IMG/VR virus record: IMGVR_UViG_3300009108_000010
Span: 1-59,571 of that record
DNA: 59,571 nucleotides
From: a virus
Strand: one strand, 5' to 3'
The first letter of the stretch is position 1, and every line of letters begins with the position of its first letter. The position numbers and the translations under genes are program-made. Below, in pieces: positions 9,729 through 43,301 of this stretch. Under the pieces are notes generated by a model. The model was not told where the DNA came from and ran no database searches. It saw nothing but the letters and a program-made list of their open reading frames with translations.

Positions 9729-11157
9729 TGCACAAATGCTTGAAGAGGGTGATACAGTTACCCAAGAGATAGAGACTGAGCATCTAGGTGAAGGACATAT
9801 AGATACAATAACAGAAACTACTACAACTGTTGAACATAAAACAACAGGTGATATACTACATAAAGATACAGGTATCGTAGCAAATCGTTACGAGGGAGAT
9901 ATGGATCTAGATTGGGGTGGGCTAGGTCCTGCGAGTATGCCAAATTGTAATGCATATTTTGGTACAGGTACGTGTGGAAAAGGTACATCAAATTCTCTCA
10001 CAACCTTTGATCAATATGTAGACATATCAGATTTTCATATATCAGATGGAGGTGCATTAGAATGGGAATTACAGATGCATCATTCAAAAGCTAATACTAC
10101 AGGATATTTTCAAACAAAAGGTTATAATAATAATGTTTTACAATGGGATACAGGACAGATTACATTAGAAAATAATCAAACACCTACAACATATTCAGGA
10201 ACATATGATTTTGCAGGAGATTTAGATAAAGTATTTATAAGAATAGGTGGAGCAAAGAATTATTATTTTGATAATGTAGAATACACAGTTAATTACAATC
10301 ATATAACAACATCAGTAGAAACATGGATAGAAATTGTTCAACCAGGATTAATGGAAGATCAAATAACAATAGAACTTATTGAACAATATGATATAGCTAC
10401 ACCAGAAGAACAGTATCAAATGGATGAGATGATGGAAGAGTTTGATATAGTTATGACATTTGATATACCTACTATGGAACAACCTATGGAAGAGATGATG
10501 GTAGACGTGCCAATAGAAATGGGTGCAATGATGGAAGAATATAACGAAGGTACTATATCATATGAAGAAGTTATAACAGAAGTTCAGGAAATGGTAGAAG
10601 AGATACAAGATATAGGGATGGATGTTGACGTATCTATGCCAACATTAGAAGAGGTTAAAGAACCTGCTATTGAACAAGAACCAGTAGAAGTAGAAGTTGT
10701 AGAAGAAACTAACGAAGAACCTACAAAGGAGGTTGCTGATGTTTCTGAAGACAATAATATGGAAGAGATTAAAGACGAAGCTAAAGAAGAGATTGAACCA
10801 CAAGAAAAGAAAACTGCGAGTAAGGATGTGGATGCAGAAGAGGTGGGTCAGAAAACAGAAACAAAGAAATTAGAAACTACAAAACAACAACAAAAGAAAC
10901 AAGCTAAAGCAAATGAAATACTTGCTACAATTCAATCACAATATGATCCTGTAGCACAGATGACAACCATAGCATTAGTGACTGCTCTTGGTCCTGATAT
11001 ACAACAATATCAACAACAAGATATAGTACAACAAATGCAATGGTATGTAGAAGAAGAGATTTATACTGATCAATTAATGCCTGATCCTCTTGGAGATTAT
11101 CTAAGTGTTAGATCAAACTTACAAATGGAAAGGATGATACAACAACAGTATGAGTGA
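9658..11157 (+). CDS. Secreted acidic protein, 499 aa, unknown
   Basis: AAGGA lies about 11 bp before the ATG at 9658, which lies inside the end of the previous gene. The N-terminus is a signal peptide (hydrophobic core near residues 8-20, then SSNAQ). Residues about 60-210 look like a beta-rich domain with aromatic and Gly-rich strands (YFGTGTCGKGT, WDTGQITLEN), possibly carbohydrate-binding. A strongly acidic Met/Glu-rich region (about 250-390) and a Gln/Lys-rich coiled-coil tail follow. An extracytoplasmic or virion-surface role is possible. No catalytic motif is seen. Confidence 0.7.
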   Translation: MKNILLMKMLLVFSLFFLYCYSSNAQMLEEGDTVTQEIETEHLGEGHIDTITETTTTVEHKTTGDILHKDTGIVANRYEGDMDLDWGGLGPASMPNCNAYFGTGTCGKGTSNSLTTFDQYVDISDFHISDGGALEWELQMHHSKANTTGYFQTKGYNNNVLQWDTGQITLENNQTPTTYSGTYDFAGDLDKVFIRIGGAKNYYFDNVEYTVNYNHITTSVETWIEIVQPGLMEDQITIELIEQYDIATPEEQYQMDEMMEEFDIVMTFDIPTMEQPMEEMMVDVPIEMGAMMEEYNEGTISYEEVITEVQEMVEEIQDIGMDVDVSMPTLEEVKEPAIEQEPVEVEVVEETNEEPTKEVADVSEDNNMEEIKDEAKEEIEPQEKKTASKDVDAEEVGQKTETKKLETTKQQQKKQAKANEILATIQSQYDPVAQMTTIALVTALGPDIQQYQQQDIVQQMQWYVEEEIYTDQLMPDPLGDYLSVRSNLQMERMIQQQYE

Positions 11158-11728
11158 AGTAGAATATCAAGGTATTAAGATAAAAGGTGGTAGATTATTT
11201 TTAATTTTCCCACTACTCGCAACTTTAGGTGGTGCTATATGGGCAGGATTTGAGGGATATGCTAGGTGGGTTGCTATGGAGGATAAGATAAATGGATATG
11301 TTGCTCCTGATCTTTCTGGTTTTAATTTAAAACTAGATGTATTAGAAGAAAGAATAATATCTTTAGAAGATAATATGAGTACAGAATTACGTACTGTAAA
11401 AGAACTTGTAGGTGCAGCACAAGATGATGCACGAACTATACGTATAGATTTAAGAAAAGATATTAATGAAGTACAAGATCAAGTTGCTGGAGTTGATAGA
11501 CGTTCTCGTAATATGGATCAAGAAGTAAGAACTTCTCTTAGACAAACTGAAACAGATTTAAGAACTATGATTGACCATGCAAGTGACAGATTTGATTCTA
11601 AACGTACAGCAATCGAGTCTGATGCACAACGAAGAATAGAACTAATAGATAGTAAACTATCAGAATTAGAATCAAAGTTACGTGAGATGTTACAACGAGC
11701 TTTAGATAATCCTTTAGCTGGTCAATAA
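11150..11728 (+). CDS. Membrane-anchored coiled-coil protein, 192 aa
   Basis: The start overlaps the previous gene by 8 bp. A single transmembrane helix lies at about residues 15-36 (LFLIFPLLATLGGAIWAGF), and the rest is a long Glu/Arg-rich coiled coil. The architecture fits an i-spanin or a membrane-spanning virion protein. It is the last rightward gene of this block and ends directly against the 3' end of the leftward gene at 11729, with no visible terminator between the converging genes. Confidence 0.7.
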   Translation: MSEVEYQGIKIKGGRLFLIFPLLATLGGAIWAGFEGYARWVAMEDKINGYVAPDLSGFNLKLDVLEERIISLEDNMSTELRTVKELVGAAQDDARTIRIDLRKDINEVQDQVAGVDRRSRNMDQEVRTSLRQTETDLRTMIDHASDRFDSKRTAIESDAQRRIELIDSKLSELESKLREMLQRALDNPLAGQ

Positions 11729-17182: not shown

Positions 17183-17599
17183 TTACTGTATAGTAATGCT
17201 CTTTGGTTTTTGTTCTTCAGGTATATTATGTGTCAGACTAACAATCAATACACCATCTTCCATTCTAGCATCTTCAACTTCTATGTTTTCTGCTAGAGAA
17301 AATCTTTTATGAAAAGATCTTCGTGCTATATTCTTATGAAGATATTCTTCATTAGAATGTCGTTTATTAGAATCACCTTTAATAGTTAAGTATTGATCTT
17401 TAACCTCAAGATATAATTCATCTTTTTTAAAACCAGCAACTGCTAATTCTATAGTATATTTATCTTCTCCTGCTTTAACAATATCATAAGGTGGATAATC
17501 ATTACCAGCTAAGACATCATTATTTTGCAGAGCTACCATATGATCCATCAAATGATCAAATCCTATAGCATATCTATTTATGTTATGAAATAAACTCAT
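17183..17599 (-). CDS. hsp20: Small heat-shock protein Hsp20/IbpA family, 138 aa
   Basis: The protein has the whole alpha-crystallin domain: YPPYDIVK at the start, IELAVAGFKKDEL, LTIKGDSNKR, a GVLIVSLTHNIPEEQKPKSI strand and a terminal I-x-I motif (ITIQ). Length fits the family. It is an ATP-independent holdase that binds unfolding proteins in the cytoplasm. AAGGAG lies 6 bp before the ATG, and a near-consensus sigma70 promoter is directly upstream, so it can be transcribed separately from the ribonucleotide reductase operon. Confidence 0.92.
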   Translation of the reverse strand: MSLFHNINRYAIGFDHLMDHMVALQNNDVLAGNDYPPYDIVKAGEDKYTIELAVAGFKKDELYLEVKDQYLTIKGDSNKRHSNEEYLHKNIARRSFHKRFSLAENIEVEDARMEDGVLIVSLTHNIPEEQKPKSITIQ

Positions 17600-38643: not shown

Positions 38644-39852
38644 ATGGCTGATGGTTTACGTTCACTTAAATATGGTATTGGTGATCAAACAACTTCAAAT
38701 CTTACAAAACAGGATTTGAAGAACATGGGATTACTTTCAGCACAAATGCTTCCTATGTCTGATATAGCAAGAGAAACTGGACTATCAAGTATAGAACCTA
38801 CTATCTATCAGGATCTAAAAAATAAAAGATACATGGATGCATTATTAAAAGGTATTAGTACTGCAGGAGATGTTGGTACAGGTACAGGAGCTGTAATGAT
38901 GGCTACAGGAGCTGGTGCACCCATAGGAGCAGCAGTAATAGGTGCAAGTCAATTAGCTAAGTTAGCTGCTAAAATGGCTAGTAAAACTAAAGTACCAGAA
39001 ATAGCAAAAGATTTAAATACTACAGAAGCAATAACTGGATATATTATTGATCCTGCTAAACTTTCTCGAAATCAATTAATAGCTAAAATAGAAAATAATA
39101 AAGAAATAAAAACTAAAACAACTAACTATTTAGATGAACAAGGATATGGTGATACTATTCCAGTTTATAGAATTATTTCTGTACAAGATAAAACAGCAGG
39201 ACTTCCAGGAAGACAAAAAGTAATAGAAAAAGCAGAAATAGGAAAAGAAAGTTTAATATCAGGATCACTTACTCCAGAAGCTAATTTAAAAACTATAAAA
39301 TTTTTTCAAGATAAAGGAGCTACGCAACAACAAATAGTTCGTTATGATGTTCCTAGAAATAAGATTAAACTAACTATGGGTAGTATTAAAGATGATATTA
39401 AACAAAATGTTAATAAAAAATTAAAACAAAAAGGTTTTGGTCAAGAAAAAATATCTGGTGTTGAAACTATAACTAATCCAAGTAAATCAGCAAAAAATCT
39501 TATTGATATGCAAGAAGAAATTATTGCTGATGTTTCTGGATTAAAACAAACTGTTTTAGGAAGTCCACAAGATTTAGTACCTATTGATGTTAATAGAATA
39601 TTAAGTGGTGAAATAAAAACTTTTAAAGATTTTAAAAAGAATCTTCCTTCCAGTTTTAGTTATGCATCACTAGAAGATTTGGACAAATTATTTAATAAAA
39701 AAATATCTTTAGATGAATTTCGTAAAATTGAAAATGCTAAAACAAAAGAAGCTTTTGATAAAATTGTAGATTTTTATGGTATTAAAATAAAGAAAAACCA
39801 AGGGGGTATGATCATGCGTGATCCATATAAGAGAGAAGCGAGGTTTATATAA
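38644..39852 (+). CDS. Virion-operon protein with ADP-ribosyltransferase-like region, 402 aa
   Basis: Residues 1-120 are Ala/Gly-rich and partly hydrophobic (GTGAVMMATGAGAPIGAAVI). Residues 170-300 resemble an ART fold: VYRIIS with Arg176, a SLISGSLTPEANLKTIKFF stretch like the STS strand and its helix, IVRYDVPRNKI, and QEEIIADVSGL at 290-300 like the Q/E-x-E motif. A C-terminal QGGMIMRD motif matches the Gly-Gly motifs in other virion genes. ADP-ribosylation of host targets, as by T4 Alt, is a hypothesis. It overlaps portal by one base (TAATG). Confidence 0.45.
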   Translation: MADGLRSLKYGIGDQTTSNLTKQDLKNMGLLSAQMLPMSDIARETGLSSIEPTIYQDLKNKRYMDALLKGISTAGDVGTGTGAVMMATGAGAPIGAAVIGASQLAKLAAKMASKTKVPEIAKDLNTTEAITGYIIDPAKLSRNQLIAKIENNKEIKTKTTNYLDEQGYGDTIPVYRIISVQDKTAGLPGRQKVIEKAEIGKESLISGSLTPEANLKTIKFFQDKGATQQQIVRYDVPRNKIKLTMGSIKDDIKQNVNKKLKQKGFGQEKISGVETITNPSKSAKNLIDMQEEIIADVSGLKQTVLGSPQDLVPIDVNRILSGEIKTFKDFKKNLPSSFSYASLEDLDKLFNKKISLDEFRKIENAKTKEAFDKIVDFYGIKIKKNQGGMIMRDPYKREARFI

Positions 39853-42410
39853 TGGCAACAGAACGTAATCCATTTGAACAGATACCAGAAGAAGTATCAA
39901 ACGTAGTTAATATACCAAAACCTGAAGAAGCTACAATGGCACAACCAACATTTGAAATGGATACAGATGGTGGTGTTATTGTTGATCTTGAAGGTACATC
40001 ACCAGAAATGGGAGCTGAAGAATCTGTACAAGAATGGTATGGTAATTTAGTTGATACATTAGATGAAGAACAAATAACAACTATAGCAACTGAAGTTATT
40101 GATTGTTTTACATCAGATAGAGATTCTCGACAAGAATGGGAGTCTATGTTTGAAAGAGGATTTGATTTATTAGGATTAAAAATACAAGATTCATCAGAAC
40201 CATTTGAAGGTGCATGTACAGCAGTACATCCTATGTTAATTGAATCTGCTGTTAAATTTCAATCAAAAGCTATACAAGAATTATTTCCACCTTCAGGTCC
40301 AGTTAAAGCACATATACTAGGTAAGACTACTCCTGAAAGAGAAGATCAAGCTAATCGTGTACAAGAATTTATGAACTATCAAACAACAGAGCAGATGCCT
40401 GAATACTTTGATGAGTTTGAAAGAATGCTGTTCCACCTCCCTTTAATAGGATCAGCATTTAAAAAAGTTTATTATGATGCAACATTAAAAAGACCAGTAT
40501 CTGAATTTGTTCCTATTGATCAATTCTATGTATCTTATTATGCATCTAATCTAAAAAAAGCAGATAGATATACACATGTAATATATAGAAGTCCTGTTGA
40601 TCTTGCAAAAGATATACGATCAGGAATATATAGTGATATAGAATTACCAGATGCAACAAATCCACAACCTACATCATTTTCTTCTAAAATGGATACTATA
40701 TTAGGATTATCACCTACAGAAAATAATGATCCTCAATATACATTACTAGAACAACATTGTTATCTAGAAATAGAAGAAGACTATGCTCTTCCTTATATTG
40801 TTACAGTTGAAGAGCAATCAAAACAAATTTTAAGTATTCGTAGAAACTATAAGAAGGATGATAAGAATCAAGAAAAAGTCTCGCACTTTGTACATTATAG
40901 ATTCGTTCCAGGATTTGGTTTCTATGGATTTGGTCTCATGCACTTCTTAGGAAATCTTACTATGACTGCTACAGCAGCTATGAGAAGTCTAGTGGATGCA
41001 GGTCAATTCGCAAACTTGCCAGGAGGATTTAAAGCAAAAGGTGTAAGGATTGTTGGTGATAATGAACCAATAAGTCCAGGTGAGTTCAAAGAAGTAGAAG
41101 CAACAGGACAAGATTTGAATAAGGCAATTATCTCTCTCCCTTATAAAGAACCTTCCTCAACTCTTTTCCAAATGTTGGGCTTTGTAACTGCAGCAGGACA
41201 GAAGTTTGCAGACAGTACAGAACAAATAGTTTCTGATGCTGCATCTTATGGACCTGTTGGAACGACTATGGCATTACTTGAAGCATCAAGTAAGTTCTTC
41301 TCTGCTATACATAAGAGATTACATAAATCTCAAAGAGATGAATTTAAAATACTTGCAAGAATCAATTATGATTACTTACCTTCAGAGTATCCATATGAAG
41401 TTCCTTTTGCTGAAAAAAGTGTAATGAAACAAGACTTTGATGGAAGAGTGGATGTTATCCCTGTCTCAGATCCTAATATTCCATCAAATGCACATAGAAT
41501 GATGATTGCACAAATGGCTTTACAAATGGCACAGCAATCACCTCCTGGTATGTTTAATCTAGAAGCATTAAATAGAACTATTTTAAATTCTGCTAATATG
41601 CCTAATCTAGAAGAAGTATTACCACCAAAACAAGAACCACAAGAGATGGACCCAGTATCTGATATTATGGCTGCTACTAAAGGTATACCTATTGCAGCAT
41701 TTGCTGGACAAAACCATGATGCACATATACAAACAAAGATGGCATACTTACAAGACCCACAGAATGGTGCTAATCCTATAATGGCTAGATTAAAACCAAT
41801 ATTAGAAGCAAATATACAAGAACATTCTGTTATGAAATATCAAGAACAAATGAATGGAATGGCAAGAATAGCAATGGAACAAATGCCACCTGAACAACAA
41901 AAAGATCCTAAAGTTGCAGAAGCAGCTATGGCTACTGCAGCACAACAAGTATTAAATGCAAATCAAGCTATGGGTCAAGCACAATCACCTGAACAACAAA
42001 TGGTAGCTTTAGAACAAGCTAAAGTAGAATTAGAGAAACAGAAGCTACAAGCAACATCTGCTAAGTATTCTGCAGATTCTGCATTAGATGCACAGAAATT
42101 GGAATTAGAGGAAGCTAAATTATTAGTGGAATCTGGTAAAGCTGGTCAAGATGCAATATTGAAAAAAGAAAAGTCTGATCTTGATAGAGAAAGTAAAGAA
42201 ACTATGAAAGCTCTTGATAATCTAACTAAAACAATTATTGCAGATCAGAAAGCTGAAATTGATCTAGAGAAAATTCGTATGACTGCTCTAGAGAAAATTT
42301 CACAAATGGAAGATCTAGATAGTAGACAACGAAGTTTAAAACTTATAGATATTATGATGGATCTATTAAAAGAAGAAATGAAAGGAGAAAATAATGCCAA
42401 TAGGGAATAA
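39852..42410 (+). CDS. Portal protein, 852 aa
   Basis: The product has the layout of large podovirus-type portals: an acidic N-terminus, EWESMFERGFDLLGLK, an AVHPMLIESAVKFQSKAI block, GPVKAHILGKTTPERED, then PVSEFVPIDQFYV and a long Gln/Glu-rich helical C-terminal region (residues about 640-850) that could form the barrel. It forms the ring through which DNA enters and leaves the head. The position after terL fits. Confidence 0.9.
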   Translation: MATERNPFEQIPEEVSNVVNIPKPEEATMAQPTFEMDTDGGVIVDLEGTSPEMGAEESVQEWYGNLVDTLDEEQITTIATEVIDCFTSDRDSRQEWESMFERGFDLLGLKIQDSSEPFEGACTAVHPMLIESAVKFQSKAIQELFPPSGPVKAHILGKTTPEREDQANRVQEFMNYQTTEQMPEYFDEFERMLFHLPLIGSAFKKVYYDATLKRPVSEFVPIDQFYVSYYASNLKKADRYTHVIYRSPVDLAKDIRSGIYSDIELPDATNPQPTSFSSKMDTILGLSPTENNDPQYTLLEQHCYLEIEEDYALPYIVTVEEQSKQILSIRRNYKKDDKNQEKVSHFVHYRFVPGFGFYGFGLMHFLGNLTMTATAAMRSLVDAGQFANLPGGFKAKGVRIVGDNEPISPGEFKEVEATGQDLNKAIISLPYKEPSSTLFQMLGFVTAAGQKFADSTEQIVSDAASYGPVGTTMALLEASSKFFSAIHKRLHKSQRDEFKILARINYDYLPSEYPYEVPFAEKSVMKQDFDGRVDVIPVSDPNIPSNAHRMMIAQMALQMAQQSPPGMFNLEALNRTILNSANMPNLEEVLPPKQEPQEMDPVSDIMAATKGIPIAAFAGQNHDAHIQTKMAYLQDPQNGANPIMARLKPILEANIQEHSVMKYQEQMNGMARIAMEQMPPEQQKDPKVAEAAMATAAQQVLNANQAMGQAQSPEQQMVALEQAKVELEKQKLQATSAKYSADSALDAQKLELEEAKLLVESGKAGQDAILKKEKSDLDRESKETMKALDNLTKTIIADQKAEIDLEKIRMTALEKISQMEDLDSRQRSLKLIDIMMDLLKEEMKGENNANRE

Positions 42411-42600
42411 AGCATATCCTGTTGATAAAGGTATTACTAATGGTAAACCTATGCATGTACCTAATAAAGATGGTGGTTTGTATGGAGATTATACTAAGAT
42501 GTCACAAAGTGACTATGGTAGTAGACCTAAAAAAGGTGTAACTTTAAAATGGGAAGATAAAGCTTGGAAATATCCAAGTCCTACGAAAGGAAAAAGATAA
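42394..42600 (+). CDS. Small hypothetical protein, 68 aa
   Basis: AAAGGAG lies just before the ATG, which is inside the portal gene end. The product is polar and basic (MPIGNKAYPVDKGITNGKPM, then PSPTKGKR). Small genes of this kind often follow the portal in marine phages. The function is unknown. Confidence 0.65.
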   Translation: MPIGNKAYPVDKGITNGKPMHVPNKDGGLYGDYTKMSQSDYGSRPKKGVTLKWEDKAWKYPSPTKGKR

Positions 42601-42674
42601 TGTGGACTAAACCTAATATTAAAGAAATATCTGTTGGATTAGAAATTAACTGCTATATGTGTGCAGAAATCTAA
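42600..42674 (+). CDS. pqqA-like: PqqA-like peptide (PQQ precursor homologue), 24 aa
   Basis: The ATG overlaps the previous stop by one base (TAATG). The peptide begins MWTKP and ends with SVGLEINCYMCAEI. PqqA precursors have the pattern MWxKP at the start and G-x-E-V-T-x-Y near the end, where Glu and Tyr are cross-linked by PqqE to make pyrroloquinoline quinone; some bacterial PqqAs continue with SAEI. Here the Glu-xxx-Tyr spacing (Glu15, Tyr19), the preceding Gly-Leu and the AEI end are all kept. No pqqB-E genes are present in the window. Whether it feeds, mimics or blocks the host PQQ pathway cannot be told. Confidence 0.75.
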   Translation: MWTKPNIKEISVGLEINCYMCAEI

Positions 42675-42678
42675 TTAA

Positions 42679-42876
42679 ATGGAAATATGGGATGAGGTTG
42701 TTAAAGAATTTAATGACGAACTCAATAAATTAAGAACTGGTGTTTGTGAAGGGCAATCAGATAATTTTGCTCATTACAGACAAATGGTTGGGCACATTTA
42801 TGGAATTGAATGGTCCAGAAATAAACTAACAGATATTGTTAAAAAACGTATCTATTCAGATGAAGAGGAAGACTAA
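42679..42876 (+). CDS. Small hypothetical protein, 65 aa
   Basis: The product starts MEIWDEVVKEFNDELNKLRT and contains HYRQMVGHIYGIEWSRNKL with an acidic end. It lies between the PqqA-like peptide and groES with a 4-bp gap and a one-base overlap. It is a helical protein of unknown role. Confidence 0.65.
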   Translation: MEIWDEVVKEFNDELNKLRTGVCEGQSDNFAHYRQMVGHIYGIEWSRNKLTDIVKKRIYSDEEED

Positions 42877-43301
42877 TGCAACAGGTATCATTAGCTAAGA
42901 CTATTAAGAATGATATGTGGATTACAGAAGAAGATCAAAGTGATCCAAATATTCTACCTGAACTTCCAGGTTTTCATGTACTCGTAAGACCTGTCTCAAT
43001 TAAAGAAAAGACAAAAGGTGGTATACTATTACCTGATTCAACAAAGGAAGACATGTCCTATCTTACTACAGTAGGTCGTGTGGTAGCTCTAGGAGATTTA
43101 GCTTATCAAGATAAAGATAAATTTCCTAAAGGTGAATGGTGTAAAAAAGGTGATTATGTTTGTTATGGAAAACATTCAGGTCAAAAGATAAAATATAAGG
43201 GTATTCGTCTTATATTATTATTTGATGATCAAATTATTATGCGTGTGGAACATCCAAAAGATCTAGATCCAACCTTTAATTTACATGCAGGTAGTGCATA
43301 A
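42876..43301 (+). CDS. groES: Co-chaperonin GroES-like protein, 141 aa
   Basis: The Cpn10 pattern is clear: FHVLVRPVSIKEKTKGGILLPDS (mobile loop and roof region), then TVGRVVALGDLAY, KKGDYVCYGKHSG and a final ILLFDDQIIMRV strand. It is longer than bacterial GroES (about 95 aa) because of an N-terminal extension of about 28 residues, a short insert (QDKDKFPKGEW) and a C-terminal tail. It probably works with host GroEL to fold the capsid protein, like T4 gp31. Confidence 0.88.
   Translation: MQQVSLAKTIKNDMWITEEDQSDPNILPELPGFHVLVRPVSIKEKTKGGILLPDSTKEDMSYLTTVGRVVALGDLAYQDKDKFPKGEWCKKGDYVCYGKHSGQKIKYKGIRLILLFDDQIIMRVEHPKDLDPTFNLHAGSA

Follow-up and report, generated by a model that had tools for sequence, protein, structure and literature searches.

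A phage-encoded PqqA precursor peptide as a likely supplier of substrate to the host PQQ pathway

Synthesis of each molecule of the cofactor PQQ consumes one molecule of the peptide PqqA, and Barr et al., as cited in PMC7678222, reportedly found in 2016 that PqqE, acting with PqqD, joins the Glu and the Tyr of PqqA. Phage copies of pqqA are already known. In particular, a T4-like methylophage population of Lake Baikal has been reported to carry pqqA alongside methanol dehydrogenase (PMC7678222), and a study of reservoir sediments lists pqqA, pqqD and pqqE among virus-encoded genes (PMC13188868). Among bacteria, members of the Methylophilaceae hold 3–12 copies of pqqA per single pqqBCDE set, so that extra copies of just the substrate gene have a precedent in bacteria (PMC4109929), and a survey of RiPPs found a PqqA family to be co-expressed with defence systems (PMC11118758). 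The papers describing MEP301, MEP401/402 and Melnitz do not report pqqA, and we found no paper on pqqA in HTVC023P-like phages or on its having been overlooked in cultured methylophages; neither the breadth of its distribution nor the fact that it was missed in isolates seems to have been pointed out before. (Most of the subscription literature lay outside this search, and priority is not claimable.)

The stretch of DNA analysed here, which we refer to as the window, is a virus record of 59,571 bases. The locus of interest comprises the following features:

39852-42410, plus strand: portal protein (phrog_1216, 1.4e-40; about 40% identical to the HTVC023P and HTVC027P proteins)
42394-42600, plus strand: 68-aa ORF upstream of pqqA, conserved in nearer relatives
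42586-42591, plus strand: Shine-Dalgarno-like AAAGGA, 8 nt 5' of the pqqA ATG, as read from the sequence
42600-42674, plus strand: pqqA, 24 codons plus TAA, coding for the PqqA precursor peptide MWTKPNIKEISVGLEINCYMCAEI
42642-42644 and 42654-42656, plus strand: codons for Glu15 and Tyr19, within pqqA
42679-42876, plus strand: 65-aa ORF directly downstream of pqqA, retained with or without pqqA
42876-43301, plus strand: GroES-like co-chaperonin (PF00166, 1e-12; phrog_3188, 1.6e-16)

An initial reading of the letters (the original prediction) had picked out a 24-codon frame coding for a PqqA-like peptide, and the frame is present, reading MWTKPNIKEISVGLEINCYMCAEI. The one-base overlap with the stop codon of its neighbour was likewise correct, base 42600 being common to the ATG of pqqA and the TAA of the 68-aa ORF. 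The gene had been placed between portal and groES; it is flanked by both, but not directly, and the order is portal, 68-aa ORF, pqqA, 65-aa ORF, GroES and then further genes, among them the one for the major capsid protein. Against the Pfam model for PqqA (PF08042) the peptide scored 29.9 bits (E = 5.3e-7), and against the NCBIfam equivalog TIGR02107 it scored 32.3 bits (E = 6.3e-8), in each case above the curated cut-off (21.1 and 20 bits, respectively). The profile match is far above chance level, and all 27 of the peptides selected from phages and hosts match TIGR02107. Moreover, the predicted Glu-xxx-Tyr is found as Glu15 and Tyr19, the stretch G13-L-E15-I-N-C-Y19 presenting the residues cross-linked by PqqE in a G-x-E-x-x-x-Y context. 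Judged by its sequence, the ORF is a genuine member of the PqqA family.

With about 40% identity, the closest counterparts of the window's terminase and portal protein are those of HTVC023P, HTVC027P and their relatives. An Hsp20 heat shock protein is encoded at 17183-17599 on the minus strand (phrog_432, 8.1e-40), so the phage has both Hsp20 and GroES. (Consensus promoter scans gave counts not above those of shuffles.)

Relatives of the window were gathered through similarity of the portal protein and GroES, with the peptide not used, and were then searched with a profile of viral PqqA peptides. With each version counted once, their pqqA copies comprise 33 DNA sequences and 27 peptides, of which a few are truncated where the match starts. 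G-x-E-x-x-x-Y is retained in all 27 peptides, with Glu15 and Tyr19 invariant; across 30 distinct full-length 24-codon copies the invariant positions are M1, W2, P5, E9, V12, G13, L14, E15, I16, N17, C18, Y19 and C21, and residues 3, 4, 6 and 20 vary in the relatives' peptides. Pooled pN/pS is 0.22, with a JC-corrected dN/dS of about 0.13. In related phages the gene evolves under purifying selection, and its Glu and Tyr are conserved. The profile match and this conservation both speak for the original prediction, which had named the lack of either as grounds for refutation. (Note that scans with sequence patterns were rejected as evidence of this conservation because the patterns themselves require Glu and Tyr; only loci derived from portal and GroES were used for it.) Among all virus loci fetched, a GGA, AGG or GAG motif lies upstream of the gene in 262 of the 263 pqqA copies with an identifiable ATG, a count that concerns a short motif and has no background rate beside it.

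SAGs and MAGs of marine alphaproteobacteria yielded the bacterial peptides that match that of the window. In these bacteria pqqE is located about 2.2 kb downstream of pqqA; pqqE scored above the cut-off in 23 of the 30 bacterial genomes searched that hold this peptide type, and a PQQ alcohol dehydrogenase did so in 15 of 21 bacteria that have it. In five marine alphaproteobacterial genomes pqqA is present in several copies, stand-alone or in tandem (L387, L401, L418, L426, with three in a row, and L466). The closest bacterial DNA among the copies fetched (L412) is 75% identical to the pqqA of the window, and acquisition of the window's gene was therefore probably not recent. Contigs L145, L165 and L200 encode the very peptide found in bacteria L388 and L424, and the DNA identity, at 83–90%, does not reach beyond the gene and a few adjoining bases; the neighbouring genes on the three contigs look T4-like by eye (lysozyme, PhoH and others).

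From the type of peptide that it encodes, the window phage probably infects a PQQ-using marine alphaproteobacterium. Papers on AEGEAN-169/HIMB59 make no mention of PQQ and so are of no help in naming the host. Two contigs binned with bacteria, both carrying pqqA-type ORFs, were excluded as host evidence: L385 ('Maricaulis' MAG), a phage contig with homologues of the portal, GroES and other genes of the window, and L442 ('Flavobacteriaceae' MAG), which looks phage-like and has several window homologues. The suggested link to methylotrophs is borne out for isolated phages, in that all those bearing pqqA infect methylotrophs, but sits less well with the window, whose peptide is of the marine alphaproteobacterial type.

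As originally proposed, the phage appears to lack pqqB-E: models of pqqB, pqqC, pqqD and pqqE found no match in the window, the result for pqqC being a weak one because the control genomes were silent for it too. Among 50 long virus records bearing pqqA, none had pqqE above the cut-off, and neither PqqD nor a PQQ alcohol dehydrogenase was found in 50 records that include the window. (Three virus records gave weak matches to radical SAM proteins; these scored under the cut-off for PqqE and were disregarded.)

We consider it likely that the gene is a true pqqA, taken by the phage lineage from marine alphaproteobacteria, and that it acts as an auxiliary metabolic gene for substrate supply. Since each PQQ consumes one PqqA, the 24-codon substrate alone would be the cheapest way to sustain PQQ. 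The phage would make the peptide from its late operon, which is presumably strongly expressed, and would thereby supply stoichiometric substrate; host PqqD-PqqE would cross-link Glu15 to Tyr19 of the phage peptide, and a host protease, PqqB and PqqC would then complete PQQ. In this way PQQ, and hence the periplasmic PQQ-dependent alcohol dehydrogenases, could be kept supplied after host expression drops. That the phage uses the same arrangement as the Methylophilaceae is, by analogy, the simplest and most likely reading. Here we infer translation, processing by the host enzymes, an effect on the level of PQQ and the identity of the host, and we assume that PqqA is limiting during infection; a position among structural genes implies that expression is late, and PQQ may then have little time to matter. 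Of the three roles first put forward (boosting the host pathway, competing for its enzymes or making a different modified peptide), boosting is the best supported and the others are less so.

It is unlikely that the phage peptide instead competes with or diverts host PqqD/PqqE, be it as a decoy, a regulator or a different modified peptide, although phages of PQQ-dependent bacteria would in that case control a cofactor pathway through a 24-residue substrate mimic. We regard as more doubtful still the specific possibility that phage PqqA, as a decoy, occupies PqqD/PqqE and lowers PQQ, for example slowing host metabolism. If overexpressed, the peptide would compete with PqqA of host origin, and the phage has no match to any of the later enzymes. 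The strict retention of the PQQ-forming Glu15 and Tyr19 nevertheless argues against a decoy, since an inhibitor could lose one of them; furthermore, certain phage peptides are identical to bacterial ones, and bacteria themselves use additional pqqA copies.

Consistent with a role as cargo, the gene comes and goes among related phages. In 102 distinct portal-to-groES loci, which are the best-scoring relatives so that fractions are not population frequencies, pqqA lies between the two genes in 30, just upstream of portal in 2 and is missing from 70. Three relatives about 93% identical to the window across the portal (L234, L309 and L235) are missing precisely the 75-nt ORF, their flanks joining at a shared TAAT microhomology where the window has pqqA. 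Nor was pqqA found in the portal regions of the isolates HTVC023P, HTVC027P, 023Pt_psg01, CRP-901 and DSL-LC04. Its absence from the 70 loci and from these regions of isolated relatives indicates that the gene is dispensable; pqqA is optional, mobile cargo that has been repeatedly gained or lost as a cassette. In the window group it lies immediately 5' of the 65-aa ORF, and an adjacent gene of 170–210 aa is variably present. (This gene, whose product starts MANTTF, MANSTF or similar, lies between portal and pqqA in many relatives, among them L232, L319, L239, L265, L170 and L133, and is missing in the window; the region is a hotspot for small genes.) An auxiliary metabolic gene is of cellular origin and is not needed for the virion or for replication, and the pqqA of the window qualifies on account of its portal and GroES flanks, its exact presence or absence in close relatives and its bacterial homologues in pqq clusters.

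Copies of pqqA extend well beyond this group. Two IUPAC scans of IMG/VR returned at least about 120 stretches each, and 273 of the IMG/VR loci that were retrieved contain a PqqA-like ORF, some contigs being counted repeatedly. Two sequence types dominate among viruses, GFEVTMY...N[KR], as in the Methylophilaceae, and GLEIN[CS]YACAE, as in marine alphaproteobacteria. (A virus contig of 356,312 bases, L020, carries pqqA of the Methylophilaceae type, MWTKPTAQEMRFGFEITMYVMNR.) Among the phages collected in GenBank, pqqA occurs in nine genomes of isolated methylophages, namely those of Venkman, P19250A, MEP301, MEP401, MEP402 and four Melnitz phages, and these include Zobellviridae and T4-like (Kyanoviridae) phages. 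They were recovered by tblastn with the Methylophilaceae and Pseudomonas-like peptide types; tblastn with the window peptide and two alphaproteobacterial types gave no noteworthy phage record. Two matches labelled 'Acinetobacter phage MD-2021a' (CAKLQF020000010.1, or L525, and CAKLQH020000055.1) were rejected as bacterial because pqqB, pqqC and pqqD lie beside the peptide in the annotated contig; L525, which looks bacterial, has a polyphosphate kinase gene too.

No gene has been called at the pqqA match in five of the nine methylophage isolates; the four Melnitz genomes have an overlapping 'hypothetical protein' there, which in the two that were examined is annotated on the other strand. A Shine-Dalgarno-like site accompanies the uncalled or miscalled ORF in Venkman, P19250A, MEP301, MEP401 and Melnitz (L519, L520, L521, L522 and L523). 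PqqA is widespread in IMG/VR and is also carried, essentially unannotated, by these nine isolates. The setting of the gene also varies: in Venkman, MEP301 and a Manatee Spring phage it runs against the direction of the adjacent genes, as a cargo unit of its own might; in L129, which has a protein similar to that of the spanin-like ORF of the window (11150-11728), it lies in another region, near lysis-type genes; and in other phages it is also found near recombination genes. The occurrence of a tiny, mostly uncalled pqqA in many unrelated phages of PQQ-using bacteria suggests that they feed the cofactor pathway of the host with raw material alone.

The same observations bear on three further explanations. 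The optional character of the gene, and the exact absence of the 75-nt cassette from L234, L309 and L235, would fit a functionless remnant of host DNA that has hitchhiked along, yet we think this very improbable in view of the low dN/dS, the nearly universal Shine-Dalgarno motif and the presence of the gene in unrelated kinds of phage and at unrelated genome positions; moreover, no frame-broken copy was met, in a search not designed to list such copies. There is slightly less again to be said for a precursor that a host radical SAM enzyme turns into a modified peptide other than PQQ: bacterial genomes with the matching peptide do hold further radical SAM proteins and residues 3, 4, 6 and 20 are variable, but variation spares the entire cross-link region and the equivalog model that the peptide matched is specific for PqqA. 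Least probable of all is packing of the peptide in the virion, a suggestion of the original prediction that draws on the position between the portal and groES genes and that goes unsupported, as pqqA occupies different genome modules in different phages and keeps no tie to morphogenesis.

If substrate supply is indeed its function, phages of abundant marine bacteria repeatedly carry just the ribosomal substrate of a cofactor pathway, and pqqA would be about the smallest auxiliary metabolic gene that can be expected, one that gene callers miss even in cultured phages. It would also become testable whether PQQ, and with it marine methanol and alcohol oxidation, is limiting and under viral control during infection, cultured systems being at hand in the OM43 hosts with phages Venkman, MEP301, MEP401/402 and Melnitz.

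Compared with the Pelagibacter phages HTVC023P and HTVC027P, the window has the same order of terminase, portal and GroES, with proteins about 40–45% identical (the capsid protein is about 50% identical to that of HTVC023P), whereas pqqA was not found in the 12-kb portal region examined in those two phages. The peptide resembles bacterial PqqA of the alphaproteobacterial type in its length, its M-W-x-x-P start, its G-L-E-I-N-C-Y core, the spacing of Glu15 and Tyr19 and its C-A-E-[IL] end; it differs at residue 20, which is Met in the window and Ala in the bacterial GLEINCY versions listed, and its gene, unlike the bacterial one, lies within a phage late operon without pqqB-E. Extra stand-alone pqqA copies, by which the substrate gene is multiplied without the enzymes, are a further parallel; those of the Methylophilaceae (PMC4109929) and of SAGs and MAGs from marine alphaproteobacteria are chromosomal rather than viral. 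VP_266 of Lake Baikal (PMC7678222) shares with the window a phage-encoded PqqA, proposed to boost host PQQ; it is a freshwater, T4-like phage of Methylophilaceae that also encodes methanol dehydrogenase, whereas the window is HTVC023P-like, is without any PQQ enzyme match and encodes a peptide of the alphaproteobacterial type.
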